Positions 6,392 through 33,088 of a stretch of 36,781 nucleotides of DNA are shown piece after piece. Numbering within the stretch: position 1 is the first letter of the stretch; every line of letters begins with the position of its first letter. The position numbers and the translations under genes were made by a program. The stretch is from Caldifarciminota bacterium (GTDB taxonomy: Bacteria > Hydrothermota > Tepidihabitantia > B36-G15): contig QNBE01000007.1 in NCBI GenBank assembly GCA_003645615.1, positions 1 to 36,781 on the forward strand, in the 5' to 3' direction. The notes under the pieces are model-generated. The model worked only from the letters and a program-made list of their open reading frames with translations. It did not search any database and was not told the DNA's origin.

Positions 6392-7647
6392 GCCCCCGAT
6401 TGCCAGAGCCGAAGGGCAACCAGGGCCAAGATGATGAGCCCCACACCGGCACTCATCAAGACCTTAAGATACCCGATATAATCGGCCAGATAGCCAAATG
6501 TGAAGGCGGAGATGATAAAGGATAGATTGACGATGAACTCCTTGGTGGCAAATATCCTTCCGGTGATTGTCTTCTTAACATCCTCCTGGAGCATGGTATC
6601 CTGAGTGATGGAGAGGAGGGAGAAGGCCACCCCCACCAGAACCGCGATGATACCAAGGAGGATCTTGAGAGAGATGGTGATCAGAAACTGGCCGATGATC
6701 AGAAGGAGGGCAAAGAAGATGATTACCCCGACAATCACACTACCCCGGTTGAATCTCTTCTTTAGTAGCCCGAGGATGAGGGCGCCAATGAGCATCCCGC
6801 CCCCGATCAGACCACCCATCCAGCCGACCCCGGTCGTTCCGAGATCGAGCTCCTGCTGGACGATATAGATCATGATCGTATAGGCTAAGGCCGAGGTGGC
6901 CGGGATGACAATCACCGTCAGCATGACAAAGGCGACGAGCCGATCCTTTATTACCAAAAGGATGAGTTCCTTGAGATCGGAGAAGAATTTCCGGGCATTC
7001 TCCTTCAGGGCCTGATGGAGCGAGATCCCGAGGCGCTGCTTGGGCTCAAACAGCTCCTTCCTCCCCATCCCCAGAATAAAGGTTCCGGCGGAGAAGTGGC
7101 TGAGGGCATTGATGGTGAATGGGATCATGAAGATGAGAAAACCAACCTCGAGCCGGATCATCTGGGCCAGATAGCCCCCACCGATCATACCGGCAAAGGT
7201 GGCAACCCGGGCAAAGGCGATGATGAGTGAGTTTGCCCCCATCAGCTTCTCACGCTCGACAACCTCGGGGGTTATCGCCAGACGGGAGACATTGTTAAAG
7301 AGATCTAAGGAGAAGAAGATCGTAATGGTAACGAAGACCGGCCAGAGGGCGTGGAAATACCAGACAAAGAGGGGGGTGATGATGATAAGGAAGGACTGGA
7401 TCCAGTGGCAGCGGATCATAATATTCCGCTTGTTCCAGTGATCGATGAGGACACCGGCAAATGGCGAAAGGATGATGATCGGGAGGGAGAAGGTGGTGGC
7501 GAATTCTGAGAAGGCCCCGACCCTTCCCGGACTCAAAAGTCCGATCAGACCAACGACAACCATGTGGGTGAGGCGGTCGCCAAACTGGGAGATCGTATTG
7601 GAGAAGACGAGAAAACGGAGTGGTTTATTGGCCAGTAGCTTAAACAC
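6388..7647 (-). CDS. Major facilitator superfamily transporter
   Basis: 419 residues with about 12 hydrophobic segments and little else. The start (MFKLLANKPLRFLVFSNTIS, then QFGDRL) and the loop-2/3 region (GVLIDHWNKRNIMI, matching the MFS G-xxx-D-R/K-xG-R/K-R/K motif in relaxed form) place it in the MFS, in the subgroup of poorly characterised multidrug-efflux or macrolide-efflux-like carriers. Substrate cannot be named. The central loop (about residues 195-230: ELFEPKQRLGISLHQALKEN) links the two six-helix halves. GTG at 7647 is chosen because it follows a promoter-like pattern with no room for a ribosome site. The downstream clpC promoter is built over its stop codon. Confidence 0.85.
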   Translation of the reverse strand: MFKLLANKPLRFLVFSNTISQFGDRLTHMVVVGLIGLLSPGRVGAFSEFATTFSLPIIILSPFAGVLIDHWNKRNIMIRCHWIQSFLIIITPLFVWYFHALWPVFVTITIFFSLDLFNNVSRLAITPEVVEREKLMGANSLIIAFARVATFAGMIGGGYLAQMIRLEVGFLIFMIPFTINALSHFSAGTFILGMGRKELFEPKQRLGISLHQALKENARKFFSDLKELILLVIKDRLVAFVMLTVIVIPATSALAYTIMIYIVQQELDLGTTGVGWMGGLIGGGMLIGALILGLLKKRFNRGSVIVGVIIFFALLLIIGQFLITISLKILLGIIAVLVGVAFSLLSITQDTMLQEDVKKTITGRIFATKEFIVNLSFIISAFTFGYLADYIGYLKVLMSAGVGLIILALVALRLWQSGA

Positions 7648-7653
7648 GGCTTA

Positions 7654-7681
7654 GGATAATCAGCGGTTGAGATGGTGTCAA
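7654..7681 (-). promoter_or_regulatory. Possible promoter of the MFS gene (leaderless geometry)
   Basis: TTGACA at 7681-7676 on the minus strand contains the TGA stop of the DUF401 gene. A 16-base spacer leads to TTATCC, a poor -10, followed by 6 bases and the GTG start. The -35 and the geometry match the better promoters here, but the -10 does not, so this is tentative. Confidence 0.35.
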
Positions 7682-8856
7682 CGGTAGAGGGTTAGGGAGA
7701 GGATGAGGGTCGAAGCGAAGACGATCAGAACCGGTGGGGCCAGTTTTAAGAGGAGTCGGCGGATCGGGACATGAAAGTATTCCCCACTGACAACGAGACA
7801 GGGATGGACCGGCGAGGTGACATAACCGAAGAAGATGGCGATATAGATTACCGCAAAGATCTCCGGCCTTATCCCCTCCACGGTTGCCAAGTAGACCGGA
7901 AAGATGATCGAGGCCGGAAGCTGGACCCTTCCGGTGAGGAGGCCGAGGAGAAATCCTCCAACTACAGCGAGAAGAAGCGGGGGGAGGGGGAGCTGGCCGA
8001 TCAGGTTCCGGACCGGGGAGCGCTGGAAGATAAAAAGATAGATGAACATCCCGATCAGAATCAGGGTGAAGTTCCAGGGTCTCGCCTCCCCGATTATTCT
8101 GATGAGTTCGATGGCGCGCCTCTTCAATTGGAGGGCAAGGATGAGGGCGACTAAGACACCGATCAGGGTTGCTGAAGAGCCGAGCAGAAGTGTCCGTTTG
8201 AGGGTGAAGTCCAGAATCGGGGCGGTGATGATGATAAGGATCGGCAGGAGCAGACCGGATAAGCGGAAGCGTTCTTTATACTCGATCCGGCCTTTGACCT
8301 GAGAGAGAAAAAAGAAGTTGCCCAGAACCAAGGCGAGCAGGAAGCCGGGGAGGAGATAGATAATTGCGGTATAGACATCGAGTCCGCAGATCCTGACCGA
8401 GGCGATCAGGGCGGGGCTTAAAGGGTAGACGAGGATGAAGAGATGGCGAAACCAGTTGTTTATTGCCGCCTTGAGATCATCGGCAACACCTCTCCCCGCC
8501 TCAGCCAGGATGGGAGCGGAAAGGAGGGCACCACCGGGCATCGGGAGCAGGCCCATCATTGCCGCCGATAAGGCGAGAAGGTATTTTCTCTTGATCCTCA
8601 GGTTGTTGATCAGATTCCCGATCTGACCGCTCTCCTTCATCACCCCCCCGATGATCGGGATGACACCCATGGCCAAGGAGAGGATAACAATGGATGGGTC
8701 GGTTAACACTGCGATGATCTGGTGGAGGACAAGGGCCAGGGTCATGGTGATCAGACCCAGTGCCACCGCTCCGGTGGTTATTGCCAGGGCGAGATTCCAC
8801 CGGGAGATGAGGAGAATGATAAAGAGTGAGATCAGAAATCCGAGCCAGATGAGCAT
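7678..8856 (-). CDS. DUF401 family integral membrane protein (putative permease)
   Basis: 392 residues, almost wholly hydrophobic, with some 10-12 membrane segments. The pattern fits the DUF401 family (related to the ion-transporter/ArsB-NhaD-type superfamily): MKESGQIGNLINNLRIKRK, then GLLPMPGGALLSAPI (a re-entrant-like proline/glycine loop), NNWFRHLFILVYPLSPALI, and near the end GYVTSPVHPCLVVSGEYF. The two proline/glycine loops, in the first and second halves, look like the inverted-repeat hairpins of this transporter fold. The substrate of DUF401 is not known to me. ATG at 8856 lies 6 bases after a -10 box and has no ribosome site, so it is probably translated from a leaderless transcript. 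It is the first gene of the minus-strand run. Confidence 0.85.
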   Translation of the reverse strand: MLIWLGFLISLFIILLISRWNLALAITTGAVALGLITMTLALVLHQIIAVLTDPSIVILSLAMGVIPIIGGVMKESGQIGNLINNLRIKRKYLLALSAAMMGLLPMPGGALLSAPILAEAGRGVADDLKAAINNWFRHLFILVYPLSPALIASVRICGLDVYTAIIYLLPGFLLALVLGNFFFLSQVKGRIEYKERFRLSGLLLPILIIITAPILDFTLKRTLLLGSSATLIGVLVALILALQLKRRAIELIRIIGEARPWNFTLILIGMFIYLFIFQRSPVRNLIGQLPLPPLLLAVVGGFLLGLLTGRVQLPASIIFPVYLATVEGIRPEIFAVIYIAIFFGYVTSPVHPCLVVSGEYFHVPIRRLLLKLAPPVLIVFASTLILSLTLYR

Positions 8857-8862
8857 CGCTCA

Positions 8863-8890
8863 ATGATACCGGTTTATCCCCTAATCGCAA
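8863..8890 (-). promoter_or_regulatory. Leaderless promoter of the DUF401 gene
   Basis: On the minus strand: TTGCGA (8890-8885), 16 bases, TATCAT (8868-8863), 6 bases (TGAGCG), then ATG at 8856. The expected transcription start coincides with the start codon. Confidence 0.65.
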
Positions 8891-8970: not shown

Positions 8971-8998
8971 TTGACTTGTTCCGAAAGATGGATATTAT
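8971..8998 (+). promoter_or_regulatory. Leaderless promoter of the FG-GAP/AmmeMemo operon
   Basis: TTGACT (8971-8976), 16 bases, TATTAT (8993-8998), 6 bases (TTTCCT), then ATG at 9005. There is no room for a ribosome binding site. It is divergent to the DUF401 promoter; the 148-base gap 8857-9004 holds only these two promoters. Confidence 0.75.
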
Positions 8999-9004
8999 TT
9001 TCCT

Positions 9005-10573
9005 ATGTTAATTGCCTGGATCATTTATTTGGTTATACCCTATCCTAACAATCCCTCTTGGGAATCTACCGATGGTGGCTATACCACCGGTGGGGTCCTG
9101 ATCGATGTCGATATGGATGGCGACCTCGATCTGGTCGTCTCCAATGGCAATGATATGGCCACCCAGACCAATCGATGTTATAAGAATACCGGCAATGCCC
9201 TGCCAACAACTGCAAGCTGGAACTCAGCCGATCGGGATTATCATGGCCATTGCGCCTGCGGCGATATCGATAACGATGGCTATCCAGAGCTGGCGGTTTC
9301 CAATTATGGCTCATTCGCACCGAATTATGATAAGCTCTACCGGAATCAGAATGGGAACTTCGAATCCTCACCCTCCTGGCATCCCACCAGCACCACCAAC
9401 TCCTTTGCCTGCGCCTTCGGCGATGTCGATAATGATGGTGACTTGGATCTTGCCTTTGCCTGCGGTGAGAGATATACGAGTAACCCCCAGCGGGTCAAGC
9501 TCTTTTTAAATATCAACGGCAATATCAGCACCACCCCGAGCTGGGAATCGAATGTCCAGTCCTATTTTTATGATGTGGAATGGGTCGATATCGATAACGA
9601 TGGCGATCTCGATCTTGCCTGCGCTGCAGATGGCGCCCCAAATCTGATCTACGAGAATATCGGTGGCAAGCTCGGCTCCACCCCCTACTGGCAGTCGAGT
9701 GATAGCCAGGGGACCTTAGAGATCGCCTTCGGTGATTTCGATTCCGACGGCGATCTCGATATGGCCGCAGCCAACAATGCCCAGCTCGGTGGTGAGAGCC
9801 GGCTCGTCCTCTACCGTAATCTCGGCACCACCTTGGAGCAATCGCCATCCTGGCAATCGAATGATAACCGGACCTACTACTCCTGCTGTGCCTTCGGTGA
9901 TGTCGATATGGATGGCGATCTCGATCTTGCCGGCGGTGGCTGGTGGGAACCGGTGGTCGTCTTTGAGAATCGGAATGGCAATTATAATCCAACCCCGGAC
10001 TGGTCCTGGTCTCCTCCCAACAATCGCGATCTCGTCTGTGAGGAGATAGCCTTTGGTGATATCGACAACCGTTGTTCTCCAACCGTCAACTCCGAATCCC
10101 ATCCGGTAGCACCAGACCACCGGTTGATCTATCTCAATCACCGATACATCCGGAAGATTATCAGGATTACCCATTCCGGTGGCAATGTTAACCCGTCGTC
10201 TTATTGTTATGACCATGTCAACGGCTGGGTCTCATTTGATAGCATCTTCTCAGGACCGGACACGGTCCGTGTGACCTACCGGTATTCCAAGGACATCGAT
10301 CTTCTGGTCACCAACTGGGTCAACAGCCGGGGGAACTTCTACTTCCTCAATGAAGGACCGGCAATAAGAGAAGTCGCCTCCAAGAAGCACCGTTTGCTGC
10401 CCGCCATTGTCCTTGGCCCTCTCTCCATCCCGAAGGAGATCGGCCCCTATCGCCTTTTTGATATCTCCGGAAGATTAATCTGCCGGGATCGATTCGATCT
10501 GATCCCTCTCCAGACCGGTGTATATTTCTTAAAAGCCGATGGATATCATCAGAAGTTGGTGGTGATTAAATGA
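9005..10573 (+). CDS. Secreted FG-GAP/VCBS-repeat protein with C-terminal sorting domain
   Basis: 522 residues. A short hydrophobic N-terminus ([14 protein letters not shown]) is a likely signal peptide. Six calcium-loop repeats follow at roughly 60-residue spacing, each of the form (F/I)GD(V/I/F)D-x-DGD-x-(D/E)[86 protein letters not shown] seventh ([12 protein letters not shown]) has lost the loop. This gives an integrin-alpha-like beta-propeller. The last ~80 residues ([14 protein letters not shown], then GVYFLKADG and LVVIK) form a Por/T9SS-type C-terminal domain, so the protein is probably exported and anchored at the surface. It is the first gene of a five-gene operon, which is odd because the next genes look cytoplasmic. 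Ligand unknown. Confidence 0.9.
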
Positions 10574-13915: not shown

Positions 13916-14910
13916 AACAGCTTCGGGATCGTCTTATCGAAGGGTGGACGGGCGATCCCTCGTTCGGTCACAATCGCGGTGATATATCTTGCCGGGGTCA
14001 CATCGAAGGAAGGGTTGAGGACCTCAATACCCTCGGTCGCCACCCTCATCCCCCGGAAGGTTGTGATCTCATCTGGAGCCCGATATTCGATCGGGATTGA
14101 GCCACCATCTCTCAGCTTCGGATCGATCGATGAGATCGGAGCGACGACGATGAAGGGAACCTTATGGATATGGGCAACAATGGCGATCGTTTTGGTCCCG
14201 ATCTTATTGGCGGTATCACCATTTGTGGCGATCCGATCACCACCAACGATGACCAGATCGATCTGGGGCATGAGTGAGGCAACTGCAGAATCGCAGATCA
14301 AGGTCGGGGTGATCCCATTCTTCTTGAGCTCCCATGAGGTGAGTCTCGCCCCCTGGAGATAGGGCCTCGTCTCAGTGCAGAAGACCTGAAACCGCTTCCC
14401 CTCTTCTTTTGCGGTGTAGATGACACCGAGGGCGGTCCCGATCCCGGTTGTCGCCAAGGCGCCGGCATTACAGTGGACCAGGATCCGGGCACCATCTCTG
14501 ATCAGTCGGGCCCCATACCGACCCATGGCGATACAGGCCTCCTGATCCTCCTTTTCGATCTTCCTCGCCTCGGCCAACAGTCTGCTGGGAAGGTCCTTCC
14601 TGCCCTGGATGATCCTGGCCATCCGATCTAAGGCCCAGTTGAGGTTGACCGCGGTCGGACGGGCCGATCTTAAGAGCTCGATCGTCCTTCGGAGATGATC
14701 GGGATTATGGTTGCGGAAGGACTCGACCACAACCCCATAAGCGGCTGCCACACCGATAAGAGGTGCTCCCCTTAAGTTCATCTCCTTTATCGCACGGTAG
14801 ACCGCCTTCCCACTTCGGGCTTTAAGATAGACCTCCTCGTGAGGAAGGCGGAGCTGATCGAGGATATATAAAGTCTTGCCCTTTAGAAAGATGGTCTTAA
14901 ATCCAGCCAT
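13912..14910 (-). CDS. mtnA: S-methyl-5-thioribose-1-phosphate isomerase MtnA
   Basis: Converts 5-methylthioribose 1-phosphate to 5-methylthioribulose 1-phosphate in methionine salvage. 332 residues, close to the family's 340-350. The eIF2B-like fold shows RGAPLIGVAAAYG near residue 47, LVHCNAGALATTGIGTALGV with the catalytic Cys at about 147, FCTETRPYLQGARLTSWEL, and VGGDRIATNGDTANKIGT with the catalytic Asp at about 225. RGAP, HCNAG and GDRI distinguish it from eIF2B subunits; ribose-1,5-bisphosphate isomerase is the main alternative. ATG at 14910 follows a TATAAT box by 5 bases and has no ribosome site. No other salvage genes are in the window, though a SAM hydrolase gene lies at 28232. 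Confidence 0.95.
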   Translation of the reverse strand: MAGFKTIFLKGKTLYILDQLRLPHEEVYLKARSGKAVYRAIKEMNLRGAPLIGVAAAYGVVVESFRNHNPDHLRRTIELLRSARPTAVNLNWALDRMARIIQGRKDLPSRLLAEARKIEKEDQEACIAMGRYGARLIRDGARILVHCNAGALATTGIGTALGVIYTAKEEGKRFQVFCTETRPYLQGARLTSWELKKNGITPTLICDSAVASLMPQIDLVIVGGDRIATNGDTANKIGTKTIAIVAHIHKVPFIVVAPISSIDPKLRDGGSIPIEYRAPDEITTFRGMRVATEGIEVLNPSFDVTPARYITAIVTERGIARPPFDKTIPKLL

Positions 14911-14915
14911 AGCGG

Positions 14916-14944
14916 ATTATAGCCAGCTCTCTCTTCGGGATCAA
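14916..14944 (-). promoter_or_regulatory. Leaderless promoter of mtnA
   Basis: Minus strand: TTGATC (14944-14939), 17 bases, TATAAT (14921-14916), 5 bases (CCGCT), ATG at 14910. It has a perfect -10 and leaves no room for a leader with a ribosome site. Confidence 0.7.
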
Positions 14945-15593: not shown

Positions 15594-15626
15594 CCTCCTT
15601 TCGGGTATCTTATACCCGGGAGGAGG
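15594..15626 (-). promoter_or_regulatory. Hairpin over the transposase ribosome binding site
   Basis: Two 15-base arms (15612-15626 and 15594-15608) separated by a 3-base loop; 13 of 15 positions pair in the minus-strand RNA. The 3' arm contains AAAGGAGG, the Shine-Dalgarno site of ATG 15589. On the plus strand the same hairpin is followed by a run of six T (15629-15634), so it could also act as a plus-strand terminator, although no plus-strand gene ends nearby. Confidence 0.65.
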
Positions 15627-15712: not shown

Positions 15713-15740
15713 TTGACCCCTCTCAAGTAGAGGATATAAT
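15713..15740 (+). promoter_or_regulatory. Leaderless promoter of htrA
   Basis: TTGACC (15713-15718), 16 bases, TATAAT (15735-15740), 6 bases (TTAAGA), then GTG at 15747. The spacer holds a 5-bp inverted repeat, CCTCT (15719-15723) and AGAGG (15729-15733), which could be an operator half-site pair. Confidence 0.8.
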
Positions 15741-15746
15741 TTAAGA

Positions 15747-17726
15747 GTGTTGAGTTACTTCTTTATCCTTTATTTTCTTGCTATCACCGGGTTGAGAGAC
15801 CGCGTCCTCTCTGCAATCGAGAAGGTAAAGCCGGCTCTGATCCGCATCCATGTTGTTTCGGTTGTCCACCGGAGTGGAAGAGAGATCAAACGGGAGAGTG
15901 CCGGCTCCGGGGTGATCATCACTTCTGATGGCTATGCCATCACCAACCACCATGTTGCCGGTCGGGCCAAACGGATCATCTGCACCCTTGCCAATCAAGA
16001 GGAGGTGGAGGCGGATCTGATCGGGACCGATCCTCTGACCGATATATCGGTGATAAAGCTAAAAGGGGATAGTTTCTCCTTTGCCCGATTCGGTAACTCT
16101 GATGAGATCCAGGTTGGTGACTATGTCCTGGCAATGGGATCGCCGATGGCCCTCTCCCAATCGGTAACGATGGGTATTGTCAGCAATACCGAGATGGTCC
16201 TCCCCGGCCTCTTCTGGCCCTTCAATCGATTTACGATCGAAGGGGAGGATGTCGGCTCGATTGTCCGCTGGATCGGTCATGATGCCCCGATCTATGGTGG
16301 TAATTCCGGCGGCCCTCTGGTCAATCTCGATGGTGAGATCATCGGGATCAATGAGATCAGACTCGGTATCGGTGGCGCGATCCCATCCAATCTTGTGAAG
16401 GAGATCGCCCAGCGTCTAATCCAGTCCGGCCGGATCGATCGGGCCTGGCTGGGGCTTGAAATCCAGCCCCGACTCAAGGGTATGAAGCGAGGGGTCTTGG
16501 TGAGCGGGGCAATTGAGGGTTCACCAGCAGCAAGGGCGGGTTTTCAACCCGGCGACCTTTTGATCCGATTGGGGGGTAGAGAGGTCAATGTCAACTATGA
16601 TGAGGAGATCCCGGTCTTCAATCGTTATGTGATGGGATTGCCAATTGGGAAGGAGGTCGAGGCGGTGGTTCTCCGGGATGGTAAAGAGGTCCGTCTCAGG
16701 GTAAAGCCGACAAGGCGGGAATATCGGAGGGGTAAGACCTATGAGTTTAAGGATTGGGGGATGACCGGCCAGAATCTTACCTTCCTTTTGGCCAAAGAAC
16801 TGAAACGGAAAAAAAGGGGCGGGGTCCTGGTCACCTCAATCCGACCCGGAGGTCCGGCCCAGGAGGCCCGTCCTCCGATTGAGGTAATGGATATCATCGT
16901 GGAGGTTGACAATAGGGAGGTTAGGTGTGTCGCCGATCTGGAGGAGATCACCAAGGATATCCTTAGGGGAAAAGACGAACCGGTTCCGGTCCTGGTGAAG
17001 TTCGAACGGAGGGGGGAGGAGTATCTCACTGTGGTGAGGGTTGGGATAGCGGAGTTCATCGATCCGGGGCGGGAGGCGAAGAAGGCCTGGCTACCGGTTG
17101 CCTTCCAGGTCTTAACGCGAGATATCGCTGAGGCCCTCGGAATACCGGAAGTGACTGGAGTTAGGATCACCCGGGTCTATGAGAATACCACCGCGGCTGA
17201 GGCCGGACTTAAGGTCGGTGATATCATTACCGCCATCAATGGTGAAGAGGTTCCTGCCTCACTACCAGAGGATTTCGAGATCTTCCCCGAGATGATCCGT
17301 GAACATGAGATCGGTGAGGAGGTCCTCCTGACTATCCTGAGGGAGAAGAGGAGATTCGAGCGGAAGGTAAAACTGGTTGCTGCACCAAAACTGGCCCGAG
17401 AGATGAAGCGGTATCGGGATAAGAACTTTGAGTTTTCGGCCCGGGATATCACCTTCTACGATAGGGCAGAGGAAAGGTGGGACCACAATCAAGGTGGGGT
17501 CCTGGTTACGGGTGTCTCTCCAGGAGGCTGGGCCTCATTGGCCCACCTCGCGGTAGGCGATCTCATCATAGAAGTCGATGGTCATCCGATCAGAGATGTC
17601 GAGGAGTTCGAGAGGGTGATGAGGAGGATCGCTGATACCAAGCCGGATCATGTTGTCTTCCGGGTCCTGCGGGGGATCCACAACCTATTTATCGAGATCG
17701 AACCAAAGTGGAGCAAGGGGGAGTGA
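15747..17726 (+). CDS. HtrA/Deg-type serine protease with four PDZ domains
   Basis: 659 residues. After a short hydrophobic start (MLSYFFILYFLAITGL) that should target it to the periplasm, the trypsin-like domain (about 25-230) has a full triad: His69 in AITNHHVAG, Asp99 in DPLTDISVI, Ser187 in YGGNSGGPL. Four PDZ domains follow, at about 235-320, 335-430, 448-545 and 565-652, each with a GVLVT/GVRIT strand and a GD-(L/I)-I turn (GFQPGDLLIRLGG, GLKVGDIITAING, LAVGDLIIEVDG; the second is looser, EVMDIIVEVDN). DegP has two PDZ and DegS one, so four is unusual. GTG at 15747 is fixed by the promoter, where it falls at the expected transcription start. The next gene begins on its stop codon (TGATG) and encodes an inactive protease-like protein. 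Probably envelope quality control; substrates unknown. Confidence 0.92.
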   Translation: MLSYFFILYFLAITGLRDRVLSAIEKVKPALIRIHVVSVVHRSGREIKRESAGSGVIITSDGYAITNHHVAGRAKRIICTLANQEEVEADLIGTDPLTDISVIKLKGDSFSFARFGNSDEIQVGDYVLAMGSPMALSQSVTMGIVSNTEMVLPGLFWPFNRFTIEGEDVGSIVRWIGHDAPIYGGNSGGPLVNLDGEIIGINEIRLGIGGAIPSNLVKEIAQRLIQSGRIDRAWLGLEIQPRLKGMKRGVLVSGAIEGSPAARAGFQPGDLLIRLGGREVNVNYDEEIPVFNRYVMGLPIGKEVEAVVLRDGKEVRLRVKPTRREYRRGKTYEFKDWGMTGQNLTFLLAKELKRKKRGGVLVTSIRPGGPAQEARPPIEVMDIIVEVDNREVRCVADLEEITKDILRGKDEPVPVLVKFERRGEEYLTVVRVGIAEFIDPGREAKKAWLPVAFQVLTRDIAEALGIPEVTGVRITRVYENTTAAEAGLKVGDIITAINGEEVPASLPEDFEIFPEMIREHEIGEEVLLTILREKRRFERKVKLVAAPKLAREMKRYRDKNFEFSARDITFYDRAEERWDHNQGGVLVTGVSPGGWASLAHLAVGDLIIEVDGHPIRDVEEFERVMRRIADTKPDHVVFRVLRGIHNLFIEIEPKWSKGE

Positions 17727-19694: not shown

Positions 19695-19722
19695 TTGACG
19701 GAGAGATTATCCAGATTAAAAT
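19695..19722 (+). promoter_or_regulatory. Promoter of thrS (leader 0-3 bases)
   Basis: TTGACG (19695-19700), 16 bases, TAAAAT (19717-19722), 9 bases, ATG at 19732. The expected start falls 0-3 bases before the ATG, so there is no ribosome site and no T-box or threonine leader. Confidence 0.75.
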
Positions 19723-19731
19723 CAAATTCTA

Positions 19732-21627
19732 ATGCCGATTATTACCATTAATGGTAAGCGGTTTGAGGTTGCGAAAGGAACGAGGATTATCGATTTCGCA
19801 ACCGATCAGGAGATTGCTGCCCGCCTCAATGGCAGACTGGTCGATCTGGCCACTGTGGTGGAGGAGGATTGCGAGGTTGAGCTGATCAGTTTCAGCTCCG
19901 ATGAAGGGAAGGAGGTCTACTGGCATTCGACCGCCCACCTCCTTGCCCATGCGGTGAAGGAGCTCTTCCCAGAGGTGAAACTGGCAATTGGTCCTCCGAT
20001 CGCCGAAGGGTTTTATTATGATTTCGACTTCAAACGTCCCTTCACCGATGAGGACCTCGTCCTGATCCAGGAAAGGATGTATGAGATTAAGAACCGGAAC
20101 CTTCCGATTGAACGGTTGGTTATGAAACGGCCGGTGGCGATCGAACTATTCCGGAAACTGGGTGAGATCTACAAAGTAGAGCTATTAGAGGAGATTGAGG
20201 AACCTGAAGTTACCCTTTACAAACAGGGTGATTTTATCGATCTCTGTCGCGGTCCCCACCTCCCCTCCACGGGCAAAATTGGCTCCTTCAAGCTCCTCTC
20301 GGTTGCCGGTGCCTACTGGAGGGGGGATGAGAGCCGACCAATGCTCTCCCGAATCTATGGTATCTCCTTCCCTACCGCTGAGGAGCTGGATCGGTTCCTG
20401 GTGATGAGGGAAGAGGCAAGGAATCGTGACCACCGTGTCCTTGGGCCCAGATTGGGTATCTTCCGGATGTTTGAGGAGGCCGGACCAGGTCTTGTTGTCT
20501 GGCTGCCCAATGGGATGGTAATCCGGAGATTGATTGAGGAGTATTGGATTGAAGAGCATAAGAAGGCGGGTTACCGGTTTATCCTCTCCCCCCATATCGG
20601 TCGGGCCTGCCTCTGGCAGAAGTCTGGACATCTTGACTATTACCGGGAGAATATGTTCATCTTCCCTTATGGGGAAGAGGAGTATGTGATCAAGCCGATG
20701 AACTGCCCTTTCCATCTTCTGGTCTACAAATCGGAGACGAGGAGCTATCGTGATCTCCCCCTACGTCTGGCTGAGCTGGGCACGGTCTATCGGGATGAGC
20801 GATCCGGCGTTCTCCATGGCCTGCTCCGGGTCAAAGGGTTTACCCAGGATGATGCTCACATCTTCTGCACCAAGGAGCAGGTTGTTGACGAGGTGACCGG
20901 CGTCGTCGAACTGGCTCTCAGGTTCCTCAAATGCTACGGTTTTGAGCGTTACCGGGTCGATCTCTCGGTTCGTGATCCCCATCATAAGGAACGCTACCTG
21001 GGTGATGATCAGATCTGGGAGATGGCGGAGTCGGGACTGATTGAGGCCTTAAACCGGCTCGACCTCAAGTATCGGGAGGCACCTGGTGAGGCGGTCTTCT
21101 ACGGTCCCAAGATCGATATCCATGCCTATGATGCCTTGGGCCGTTCCCACCAGCTCACCACCGTCCAGTTCGATTTCAATCTTCCCCACCGATTTGGTGC
21201 GGTTTATATCAATCGTGCTGGAGAATCAGAAGAGGTGGTGATGATCCACCGTGCCATCTACGGATCCATCGAGCGGTTCATCGGTATCCTCATCGAACAC
21301 TACGGTGGTGACTTTCCCCTCTGGCTTGCTCCAGTTCAGGTTGCTATCCTACCGGTCTCCAGAAATCAGGCCCAGTATGGCCGGCGGATTCTCTCCCGTC
21401 TCCGTCGATCGAATCTGAGGGTCTTCCTCGATCTCCGGAATGAACGGCTCAATTATCGGATCCGTGATGCCGAGACCAGAAAGATCCCCTATATGCTCAT
21501 TATCGGTGATCGGGAGCAGAAGGAGAAGAAGGTCTCGGTCCGGAAGAGGAAAGAGGGGGATTTGGGGAGTATGCCGATCAAGGAATTTCTCCGCCGAATT
21601 CGGGATGAAATCAAGAAGAAAGCGTAG
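19732..21627 (+). CDS. thrS: Threonyl-tRNA synthetase
   Basis: Charges tRNA-Thr. 631 residues, full length. TGS domain at 1-60 (MPIITINGKRFEVAKGT), editing domain at about 62-225 with the HSTAHLLAHAV zinc-like motif and DLCRGPHLPSTGKIGSFKL, then GAYWRGDESRPMLSRIYG. The class II core holds MNCPFHLLVYKSETRSYRDL (zinc-ligand Cys), motif 2 as YRDERSGVLHGLLRVKGFTQ, QDDAHIFC, and motif 3 with MIHRAIYGSIERFIGILIEH. The anticodon-binding domain is C-terminal (about 530-631: PVQVAILPVS). It starts an operon whose next gene, infC, begins 23 bases before its stop. With infC, rpmI, rplT and pheST following, this is the classic order also found in E. coli. Confidence 0.98.
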   Translation: MPIITINGKRFEVAKGTRIIDFATDQEIAARLNGRLVDLATVVEEDCEVELISFSSDEGKEVYWHSTAHLLAHAVKELFPEVKLAIGPPIAEGFYYDFDFKRPFTDEDLVLIQERMYEIKNRNLPIERLVMKRPVAIELFRKLGEIYKVELLEEIEEPEVTLYKQGDFIDLCRGPHLPSTGKIGSFKLLSVAGAYWRGDESRPMLSRIYGISFPTAEELDRFLVMREEARNRDHRVLGPRLGIFRMFEEAGPGLVVWLPNGMVIRRLIEEYWIEEHKKAGYRFILSPHIGRACLWQKSGHLDYYRENMFIFPYGEEEYVIKPMNCPFHLLVYKSETRSYRDLPLRLAELGTVYRDERSGVLHGLLRVKGFTQDDAHIFCTKEQVVDEVTGVVELALRFLKCYGFERYRVDLSVRDPHHKERYLGDDQIWEMAESGLIEALNRLDLKYREAPGEAVFYGPKIDIHAYDALGRSHQLTTVQFDFNLPHRFGAVYINRAGESEEVVMIHRAIYGSIERFIGILIEHYGGDFPLWLAPVQVAILPVSRNQAQYGRRILSRLRRSNLRVFLDLRNERLNYRIRDAETRKIPYMLIIGDREQKEKKVSVRKRKEGDLGSMPIKEFLRRIRDEIKKKA

Positions 21628-22145: not shown

Positions 22146-22340
22146 ATGCCCAAGAAGAAGACCAAGAAGTCGTTGGCCAAAAGGATAAAGATTACCAAGA
22201 AAGGCAAGATTACCAGGAGGAAAGCCGGGGTTAGCCACCTCTTGAGCAAGAAGAAGAAGAAACGGAAACGCCACCTTAGAAAGAAGAAGGTGCTTGAGGG
22301 AGGTTCGCTCGGCCGGCTGAGACGCCTCTTGACATCGTAG
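22146..22340 (+). CDS. rpmI: 50S ribosomal protein L35
   Basis: 64 residues, very rich in Lys and Arg, the usual length. MPKKKTKKSLAKRIKITKKG and the HLLSKK...KRHLRKKK segments are typical of bL35. ATG 22146 follows the infC stop by one base and has GAGGAGG (22135-22141) upstream. Its last codons hold the -35 box of a second promoter that serves rplT. Confidence 0.96.
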   Translation: MPKKKTKKSLAKRIKITKKGKITRRKAGVSHLLSKKKKKRKRHLRKKKVLEGGSLGRLRRLLTS

Positions 22341-22356
22341 TATCCTCTGGTAAAAT
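22329..22356 (+). promoter_or_regulatory. Internal promoter for rplT-pheS-pheT
   Basis: TTGACA (22329-22334), 16 bases, TAAAAT (22351-22356). The -35 lies in the last codons of rpmI. The predicted start near 22363 leaves a leader of about 9 bases that is essentially the GGAGGT ribosome site of rplT. Confidence 0.8.
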
Positions 22357-22371
22357 CTAAGCGGAGGTCTG

Positions 22372-22725
22372 ATGGCACGGGTTAAATCTTCAGTTGTCAC
22401 GCACCATCGTCACAAGAGGTGGTTGAAACGGGCCAAGGGCTACTACGGCGGTCGACATCGCCTCTACCGGACCGCGAGGGTTGCGGTGATGAGATCCTTG
22501 GCCTATGCCTATCGGGATCGGAGGAAGAAGAAACGGGTCTTCCGCTCCCTCTGGATCACCCGGATCGGTATCGCCTTGCGCCGTTTCGACATCAACTATT
22601 CCACCTTCATCGGCGGATTGAAGAAGGCGGGGATTACCATCAACCGGAAGGTCTTAGCCGAGCTTGCCTACTCCGATCCAGATCAGTTGAGGAGTCTGGT
22701 GATGATCGCCAAGGAAAATGCTTGA
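22372..22725 (+). CDS. rplT: 50S ribosomal protein L20
   Basis: 117 residues, full length. MARVKSSVVTHHRHKRWLKR, then AKGYYGGRHRLYRTARVAVMRSL, YAYRDRRKKKRVFRSLWITR and IGIALRRFDINYSTFIGGLK are characteristic of bL20. ATG 22372 has GGAGGT 4-5 bases upstream. It overlaps pheS by 8 bases. The short leader from the internal promoter leaves no space for the L20-binding autoregulatory structure known in other bacteria, so if that control exists it must act on the longer thrS-initiated mRNA. Confidence 0.97.
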   Translation: MARVKSSVVTHHRHKRWLKRAKGYYGGRHRLYRTARVAVMRSLAYAYRDRRKKKRVFRSLWITRIGIALRRFDINYSTFIGGLKKAGITINRKVLAELAYSDPDQLRSLVMIAKENA

Positions 22726-30056: not shown

Positions 30057-30084
30057 TTGACGAGAAGCTGAATCGGCCTATACT
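30057..30084 (+). promoter_or_regulatory. Promoter of the M14 carboxypeptidase gene
   Basis: TTGACG (30057-30062), 16 bases, TATACT (30079-30084). The expected start near 30091 precedes a strong AAGGAGGT (30093-30100) and ATG 30104. A leadered gene, in contrast to its neighbours. Confidence 0.75.
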
Positions 30085-30103
30085 TAGATTGTAAGGAGGT
30101 GTT

Positions 30104-32272
30104 ATGAGGTTGCTGATTGTCGCCCTCATCATCCCCACTTTATGGGGAGAGATGCTGGTAAGGAGTTATGTTTCTGATCTTGGAATACTTAAGTCTGTCT
30201 TAGGTAAGGGCAATCTCGATCTCGCCTCCGGGAGGAGGGGAGAGTATTACGACCTCGTCCTTTATCCTCACCAGTACCATCGGTTACGGACAGCCGGGAT
30301 CAAGACCAAGGTCTTGATCCCGGACCTCGTTGCTGAGAAGGAGAAATACCGGCGGGGCTATCACAGTTATAGCGAGGTGGTCCAGATCCTGAGAAACCAT
30401 GCCGCTAATCATCCCGATATCTGCCGTCTCGATTCTCTGGGTAAGAGCTATCAAGGGAGATGGATCTACTGCCTCAAGATCTCAGACAATCCCGAGGTTG
30501 AGGATCCGACCGAACCGGACATCCTCTTCGATGCCCTCCACCACTCCCGGGAGTGGGCGACAATAGAGGTGGTTCTCTTCTATGCGGATACCCTCCTTTC
30601 CGGCTATAATGTCGATCCGGTGATAACCGACCTCATCAATAATAACGAGATCTGGCTTGTTCCCATCGTCAATGTCGATGGTTATGTCTACGACTATCCT
30701 TCACAGAACTGGTGGCGGAAGACGAGGGAGCCCTTTGGTGGTGCCATCGGCACCGATGCCAATCGGAACTACCCCGGTGTCTGCGGTCCGGATAAGGTCG
30801 ATGCCTGGGGTTACATTCCACGCAATGCCTCAGTGACCCACCGCCCTTCATCTCAGGTATTCTGTGGTGCCTATGGCCTATCCGCCGACTGTGATGAGGC
30901 CCTGGCCAATCTTATCCGTTCCCACAACTTTATCGTCCACATCACCTACCACTCCTATGCCGAGGAGATCCTCTGGCCCTGGGCCCACAAGACTCCACAC
31001 TCCACCCCGGATGCTACTCTCTATCAACAGCTTGCCAACACCATGGCATCGAAGATCCAGAAACTTTCCGGGGGGAACTATGACCCCACCCAGTTTATGT
31101 ATCCGCTCTCAGGATCGACCGATGGCTGGGCCTATGGTTACAACCATTATATCGGTGGTGAGAAATGCCTCTCCTATACGATCGAGGTCGGAACAACCTT
31201 CTATCAGCCGACTTCAGATCTACCCAAGCTTGTCCGTGAGAACTGGGATGGGGCACTCTTCCTCGCCCGGATGGCCGACTCGATCCGGACCCATGTGACC
31301 ACTGAGGTGCCACCCGCAAAGATTGCGCCGATGGATACCATCCACACCCCCAATTATTTCATCTACTGGTCACCAGAATCGGATGAATATAATCATCCCG
31401 ATTACTGGCAGCTGGATGAACTGGAGGACTATTCGGAGAAAACCGATGATTTAGAGTCGGGAACCGACCTCTGGATCCTGGATGGCTTTTCCCTCTCCAC
31501 CTCCCGTTACCACTCCCCCTCCCACTCCCTCTATTCGGGAAGGTCGAACAACATCTCCAACTATGCCCAGACCAAATATCCCTACCTGGTCAAGCCCGGT
31601 GATCGGCTCCGGTTCTGGTGCTGGTATAGCCTGGAGAGCAATTATGATGTTGCGGTCGCTGAAGTCTCACCCAACAATCGGGAGTGGTTCTCATTGGGGG
31701 AGCGGCTCACCGGCTCCTCAGGAGGCTGGGTCGAGAAGAGCTATTCACTTGCTAAGTGGGAAGGGAAGTGGATCTACATAAGGTTCCGGTGTATGACCGA
31801 TGATAACACCCTGAATGAGGGGTTCTATGTTGATGATATCAGTCCGGTCCCAGAATTCGGTTCGGTTACTACGATCTCCAGTTCGATTCCCGATACTTTC
31901 TATCAGATCACCAACCAGACCAATGGGCACTACTACTACCGCGTCCGGGGCCATAATAATCGGGGCTGGGGAAGGTTCTCCCAGCTTGAGGACTGCGAGG
32001 TCCTCCTCGGAGTGGTGGAAGGGAGGTCGTCGGTTCGATATGGCTATGAGGTGATCCGGAGCCCTTCGGCACAACCGTCGATCCGGTTTACCATCCCAGC
32101 CGGTGAACTGGCCCGGATTCGGGTCTGTGATGTCCTCGGCCGGAAGGTCGGAGAGGCTTCCTTTTCTCAGAGCACCCTCTACCGCCTTGCTAATCTACCA
32201 ACCGGCATCTACTTCATCGAGATCGAACATGATCAGGAGGTGAACCGGGAGAAGGTGGTGGTGGTCCGTTAA
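30104..32272 (+). CDS. Secreted zinc carboxypeptidase (peptidase M14) with C-terminal sorting domain
   Basis: 722 residues. Signal peptide (MRLLIVALIIPTLWG), propeptide to about 85, M14 domain at about 85-400 with zinc ligands His147 and Glu150 (HHSREW), His283 (HITYHSY), substrate-binding Asn220-Arg221 (GTDANRNYP), and catalytic Glu361 (YTIEVGTTF). Thus the active site is complete. A jelly-roll/MAM-like part (about 430-590; ESGTDLWILDGFSLST, FYVDDISPV) and an FN3-like stretch (YYYRVRGHNNRGWG) follow. The final ~75 residues (IRVCDVLGRKVGEASF, then LPTGIYFIEIE and EKVVVVR) form a Por/T9SS-type C-terminal domain. It should be exported and held at the surface or released, to trim peptides. Convergent with the MNT gene; the two stops share TTAA. 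Confidence 0.93.
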   Translation: MRLLIVALIIPTLWGEMLVRSYVSDLGILKSVLGKGNLDLASGRRGEYYDLVLYPHQYHRLRTAGIKTKVLIPDLVAEKEKYRRGYHSYSEVVQILRNHAANHPDICRLDSLGKSYQGRWIYCLKISDNPEVEDPTEPDILFDALHHSREWATIEVVLFYADTLLSGYNVDPVITDLINNNEIWLVPIVNVDGYVYDYPSQNWWRKTREPFGGAIGTDANRNYPGVCGPDKVDAWGYIPRNASVTHRPSSQVFCGAYGLSADCDEALANLIRSHNFIVHITYHSYAEEILWPWAHKTPHSTPDATLYQQLANTMASKIQKLSGGNYDPTQFMYPLSGSTDGWAYGYNHYIGGEKCLSYTIEVGTTFYQPTSDLPKLVRENWDGALFLARMADSIRTHVTTEVPPAKIAPMDTIHTPNYFIYWSPESDEYNHPDYWQLDELEDYSEKTDDLESGTDLWILDGFSLSTSRYHSPSHSLYSGRSNNISNYAQTKYPYLVKPGDRLRFWCWYSLESNYDVAVAEVSPNNREWFSLGERLTGSSGGWVEKSYSLAKWEGKWIYIRFRCMTDDNTLNEGFYVDDISPVPEFGSVTTISSSIPDTFYQITNQTNGHYYYRVRGHNNRGWGRFSQLEDCEVLLGVVEGRSSVRYGYEVIRSPSAQPSIRFTIPAGELARIRVCDVLGRKVGEASFSQSTLYRLANLPTGIYFIEIEHDQEVNREKVVVVR

Positions 32273-32956: not shown

Positions 32957-32980
32957 TCTTCTTCTTTCAACAAGATTGAC
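32952..32980. repeat. 9-bp inverted repeat between the HEPN and tRNA-Glu promoters
   Basis: GTCAATCTT (32952-32960) and AAGATTGAC (32972-32980) are perfect inverted repeats with 11 bases between, so the arm centres are 20 bases apart, about two helix turns. Each arm contains most of a -35 box: TTGACA of the minus-strand promoter and TTGACG of the tRNA promoter. A dimeric repressor could cover both. Confidence 0.6.
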
Positions 32981-33003
32981 GGCGGTGGGTGGATAGTTAT
33001 AAT
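32976..33003 (+). promoter_or_regulatory. Promoter of tRNA-Glu and the DUF4139 operon
   Basis: TTGACG (32976-32981), 16 bases, TATAAT (32998-33003), then 10 bases to the mature tRNA 5' end. No other promoter is seen before the DUF4139 start. Confidence 0.8.
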
Positions 33004-33013
33004 CGAGAATCAC

Positions 33014-33088
33014 GGCGCCATCGTCTAGCCTGGCCAAGGATATCTGGTTCTCAGCCAGAAGACCCGGGTTCAAATCCCGGTGGCGCTA
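33014..33088 (+). tRNA. tRNA-Glu (anticodon CTC)
   Basis: 75 bases. Acceptor GGCGCCA pairs with TGGCGCT (a G-U pair at position 1-72), anticodon stem TCTGG/CCAGA (33043-33047, 33055-33059) with loop TTCTCAG and anticodon CTC at 33050-33052, T arm CCGGG-TTCAAAT-CCCGG (33064-33080). D arm GTCTAGCC...AAGGAT is like that of bacterial tRNA-Glu. Position 73 is A. CCA is not encoded; the next bases are TCA. The DUF4139 start codon lies only 9 bases after the 3' end. Confidence 0.97.

Follow-up and report, generated by a model that had tools for sequence, protein, structure and literature searches.

Genes of the genome examined here are very probably transcribed, judging from the DNA, from ordinary sigma70-type promoters with a dominant 16-bp spacer; start codons adjoining the -10 box would be leaderless, those 12–45 bases beyond it would be leadered and preceded by a Shine-Dalgarno (SD) site, and both modes would be used in one genome. 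The phylum is candidate division WOR-3 (current NCBI name Caldifarciminota). The window, i.e., the whole stretch of DNA that was analysed (36,781 nucleotides), is the complete contig C7 of this 2.23 Mb genome in 186 contigs. What is new is the phylum, together with the 16-bp spacer and strong -35; leaderless genes as such have been described in other bacteria.

Promoters and start codons in the window

Five promoters within the window had been proposed to lie directly before start codons, and each was found at its position and with the spacing given for it. The htrA promoter TTGACC-16-TATAAT (15713–15740, forward strand) ends 6 bases before GTG15747, which is the first ATG, GTG or TTG of its open frame; the gene (15747–17726, forward strand) encodes an htrA-like serine protease with PDZ domains, a name with which Pfam agrees. 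The FG-GAP gene has TTGACT-16-TATTAT (8971–8998, forward strand) 6 bases from the ATG at 9005, and the DUF401 gene has promoter-like boxes TTGCGA-16-TATCAT (8863–8890, reverse strand) 6 bases from the ATG at 8856; the latter match the consensus at 9 of 12 positions and are weak taken alone, and Pfam agrees with both gene names. The thrS promoter TTGACG-16-TAAAAT (19695–19722, forward strand; Pfam agreeing again) lies 9 bases from the ATG at 19732 and is a weak example. The mtnA promoter TTGATC-17-TATAAT (14916–14944, reverse strand) has a spacer of 17, not 16, and lies 5 bases from the ATG at 14910; for its product Pfam gives only the broader IF-2B family. A further leaderless candidate, TTGACA-17-TATCCT (7653–7681, reverse strand), was found 5 bases from the GTG at 7647 of a 419-aa ORF.

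Two genes served as leadered comparisons, and both have the 16-base spacer along with a clear SD, in agreement with what had been claimed for them. For rplT (22329–22372, forward strand, TTGACA-16-TAAAAT), the SD GGAGG is at 22363–22367 and the ATG at 22372, 15 bases past the -10; for the M14 carboxypeptidase (30057–30104, forward strand, TTGACG-16-TATACT), the SD AAGGAGG is at 30093–30099 and the ATG at 30104, 19 bases past the -10; Pfam agrees with both names. A tRNA gene (33014–33088) is preceded by TTGACG-16-TATAAT (32976–33003, forward strand), the same promoter type as seen for the protein genes.

Some other features of these regions were noted. The htrA promoter spacer contains an inverted repeat, CCTCTcaagtAGAGG (15719–15733), which may be an operator or may represent chance, and a strong terminator-like hairpin of 15 pairs (15594–15626) lies about 90 bases upstream of this promoter. 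The thrS ATG overlaps the stop (TAATG, 19730–19734) of a coding-looking upstream open frame that ends in NRYGDFWKINFLNRTLDGEIIQIKIKF before its stop codon, and because of this overlap the own-genome thrS may also be translationally coupled.

Spacer length and start-codon position across the genome

We scanned the genome for TTGACN-16-TATAAT and obtained 94 matches, compared to 0 for the reversed motif and 12 for a spacer of 17; a scan of 1.6 Mb of the genome gave 2, 63, 11 and 1 matches for spacers of 15, 16, 17 and 18. Scans with a fixed TTGAC count strong -35 boxes only. The -35 played no part in the selection of divergently placed genes, which were picked by TANNNT 5–8 bases before ATG or GTG (126 of 220, or 57%); a -35 match of at least 4/6 was present at spacer 16–17 in 83% of these 126 genes, with 91 at spacer 16, 15 at spacer 17, and 0–9 at each of the others between 10 and 24. 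The preference for 16 was therefore not created by the search pattern. The canonical sigma70 housekeeping promoter combines TTGACA and TATAAT with a spacer optimum of 17 bp and an RNA start about 5–8 bases after the -10; the same hexamers are present here, whereas the preferred spacer is 16, favored over 17 by about 6:1.

The position of the start codon was assessed from bare triplets following TTGACN-16-TANNNT, independent of gene calls. ATG was found 63, 57, 25 and 16 times at offsets 5, 6, 7 and 8 after the -10, against a background of about 6, and GTG formed a smaller peak at offsets 5 and 6 (10 and 9); neither TTG nor ATC was enriched at those offsets in the same count. An excess at 5–9 bases had been anticipated, and it was strong at 5–8. 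Genes were then called with a simple home-made coding model (1442 genes in 1.79 of the 2.23 Mb). In these calls the distances from -10 to start were bimodal, with 136 genes at 4–9 bases and 84 at 12–45 bases (mostly 17–19), and an SD core was present in 7 of the 136 (5%) compared to 56 of the 84 (67%; Fisher p 2e-23). The split is consistent with the original prediction that leaderless and SD initiation are mixed in one genome. The anti-SD CACCTCCTTT was intact in six class genomes, all relatives; the own-genome 16S was not found when sought. Start codons of the 136 genes were ATG in 113, GTG in 20 and TTG in 3. A sample of these genes was functionally mixed and included housekeeping functions (topA, serS, ftsK, cytidylate kinase, aconitase and histidine kinases). 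A functional split by N-terminal hydrophobicity was considered and was not supported (leaderless 38%, leadered 51%; Fisher p 0.07, rank test p 0.37).

The 5' end of RNase P RNA is the transcription start in well-studied bacteria and was used to calibrate these distances. In 30 genomes of the class, the own one included, the Rfam RNase P match was located and the best-scoring promoter before it was sought; in 23 of the 30 the match starts 4–9 bases past the -10 (TTGACG-16-TATACT-5 in the own genome), about half of these promoters have a spacer of 17 (chiefly in families f4 and f5), and in a few of the 30 no good promoter was present. The distance to the RNase P 5' end argues that the 136-gene group should be leaderless: a start codon 5–8 bases past the -10 should coincide with the transcript end or lie no more than about 3 bases from it, and offsets 7–9 would give leaders of 1–3 bases. 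We infer that the -10 of many genes standing first in a transcription unit is so near that RNA polymerase starts on, or 1–3 bases before, the A or G of the ATG or GTG. The resulting mRNA would have neither leader nor SD site, and its translation would presumably proceed via recognition of the 5'-terminal AUG or GUG by 70S ribosomes, which translate other leaderless mRNAs. The same promoter placed 12–45 bases upstream would yield ordinary leadered, SD-started messages.

It could be argued that the true promoter lies farther upstream, that the boxes just before the start codon are AT-rich stretches arising by chance, and that ribosomes start by means of S1 on AU-rich leaders; for other phyla, AT-rich signals located around -20 to -10 have been interpreted as possible S1 sites (PMC5397173). 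S1 binding would require neither the bipartite signal with its 16-base spacer (91 genes at 16 vs. 15 at 17) nor its near one-base precision relative to the ATG, and the same kind of promoter at the same distance precedes RNase P RNA, which leaves this explanation extremely unlikely.

The sharp spacer and strong -35 of the leaderless genes might instead indicate a special sigma factor or regulon, with a 16-bp promoter dedicated to leaderless messages and distinct from the housekeeping promoter. We give this almost no credence: the ratio of spacer 16 to 17 is the same in leadered genes (76:13) as in leaderless genes (116:20), the tRNA gene and several RNase P promoters also use the 16-bp form, and the sampled leaderless genes have mixed functions, with housekeeping genes among them. 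The equal ratios therefore speak for one promoter at two distances and against a promoter class for leaderless genes; the housekeeping (sigma70-type) promoter with its dominant 16-bp spacer would serve both groups. Of the proposal that these genes belong to a promoter class with a fixed 16-bp spacer, the preference for 16 was borne out, but not the class, because the preference is found in leadered genes too and the spacer also occurs at some stable RNAs, and not the fixity, because 16 exceeds 17 only by about 6:1 and 17 is the spacer in other families of this phylum.

A third possibility is that the starts are misplaced, i.e., that the -10 yields a normal leader and translation begins at a later, SD-preceded codon in the same frame. 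The start calls, which are based on coding potential, are indeed imprecise. However, SD-preceded in-frame starts within the next 60 bases were as rare for the leaderless genes (13 of 136) as in an inside-gene control (83 of 1104), showing no clear excess, and TTG was nearly absent at the peak yet present elsewhere. Conserved domains begin at residues 1–7 in several leaderless ORFs (SerRS at 1, TopA at 5, cytidylate kinase at 6), and thrS N-termini align from residues 1–6 in nearly all class members compared. Misplacement thus seems very improbable. When starts were chosen by coding potential alone, 41.6% of divergently placed genes had the leaderless arrangement, compared to 0.6% of internal ATG or GTG codons.

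Comparison with leaderless genes of other bacteria

Genes that lack an SD and have TANNNT some 12 bp before the start codon were predicted to be leaderless in 207 of 953 bacterial genomes by Zheng et al. 2011 (PMC3160421), and such TA-led genes make up about 20% in Actinobacteria and about 40% in Deinococcus-Thermus. The present genome is alike in having the -10 near the start, starts without an SD, and a mixture with SD genes in one genome; WOR-3 is absent from the phyla listed there, and a -35 at a set spacer is not discussed in the passages compared (PMC3160421). Three features of TA-led genes were found here: a -10 located 4–9 bases before the start above chance, SD-less starts, and AUG or GUG as start codon.

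About one third of the genes of D. radiodurans are leaderless, with the -10 adjoining the ORF at a set distance from its start; Deinococcus leaderless genes have been tested experimentally, most have no classical -35, and when one was added it worked at 17 bp (PMC12340547). The adjacency of -10 and ORF at a set distance is shared with Deinococcus-Thermus, whereas most of the genes examined here have a strong TTGAC -35 at 16 bp (83% with at least 4/6), so that the lack of a -35 described for most Deinococcus genes (PMC12340547) does not extend to this genome. By analogy, leaderless starts here should work as in Deinococcus, with a strong bipartite promoter in place of the -10-only Deinococcus type. 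In mycobacteria many leaderless transcripts have been mapped experimentally beside leadered ones (PMC4633059, PMC3898074); both modes occur in one genome there as well, and the present case differs in phylum.

Within the collection of papers searched, none joined WOR-3 with leaderless. With these data an uncultured phylum would join the short list of bacteria making heavy use of leaderless messages. Gene callers that expect an SD may misplace starts in these genomes, for which the -10-adjacent ATG or GTG is a usable start signal.

Distribution in the class and the phylum

We compared thrS from 30 loci, the own copy and 29 class relatives with 53–59% protein identity to it. Boxes resembling TTGACA-16-TATAAT end 5–6 bases before the ATG (GTG in family f10) in nearly all 29 relatives, being weak in G105, and the sequence farther upstream of the promoter differs across families. 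No such promoter was found at that position for thrS of 30 outgroups, which included two non-class WOR-3 genomes. The claim that an essential gene has the leaderless arrangement therefore extends, for thrS, to the class as a whole. We considered htrA as a second conserved leaderless gene and rejected it: the orthologues compared have other N-termini and are without such a promoter, leaving the arrangement in the own genome only. Since the htrA orthologues in the class are not leaderless, single cases turn over. The htrA orthologue matches in two genomes (G077, locus L310, and G081, locus L312) contained one in-frame TAG each.

The 16-spacer form TTGAC-N17-TANNNT-N5-8-ATG was present in all 65 class genomes, never fewer than 57 times per genome (reversed control at most 13), compared to at most 24 times in 48 genomes outside the class that were reached through thrS loci. 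In the rest of the phylum this form was near background in families f17–f27 and f37. The 17-spacer form was above control in several non-class families, among them f37 (84 vs. 9 in G142), f16 and f18, which indicates that leaderless-type starts extend past the class and that the spacer differs by family; f22 and f23 have neither form. The switch from 16 to 17 among families of one phylum constitutes a natural experiment on what sets promoter spacer.

We examined if sigma70 itself could be the cause of the 16-bp spacer. Alignment of RpoD regions 2–4 from families with 16- and 17-bp spacers revealed no separating indel, and this candidate was rejected. At one position in RpoD region 3.0 (loci L211–L233), taken here as the counterpart of the extended -10 contact E458 in E. 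coli sigma70, the class has Asp (examined in families f1–f10), and the phylum's other families examined have Glu. This is a lead only, because f11 and f33, 16-spacer families outside the class, also have Glu. In our judgement it is as likely as not that a change in the RNA polymerase holoenzyme moved the housekeeping promoter of the whole WOR-3 class from a spacer of 17 bp to one of 16 bp, and that leaderless initiation is the class's default for genes first in a transcription unit, having been retained at genes like thrS from before the class diversified.

The strong promoter of family f37 has a spacer of 17, with 332 occurrences of TTGAC-17-TATAAT in G142 vs. 7 at 16. The five WOR-3 genomes G142–G146 of this family each contain about 190–330 copies of TTGAC-17-TATAAT and almost none at spacer 16.
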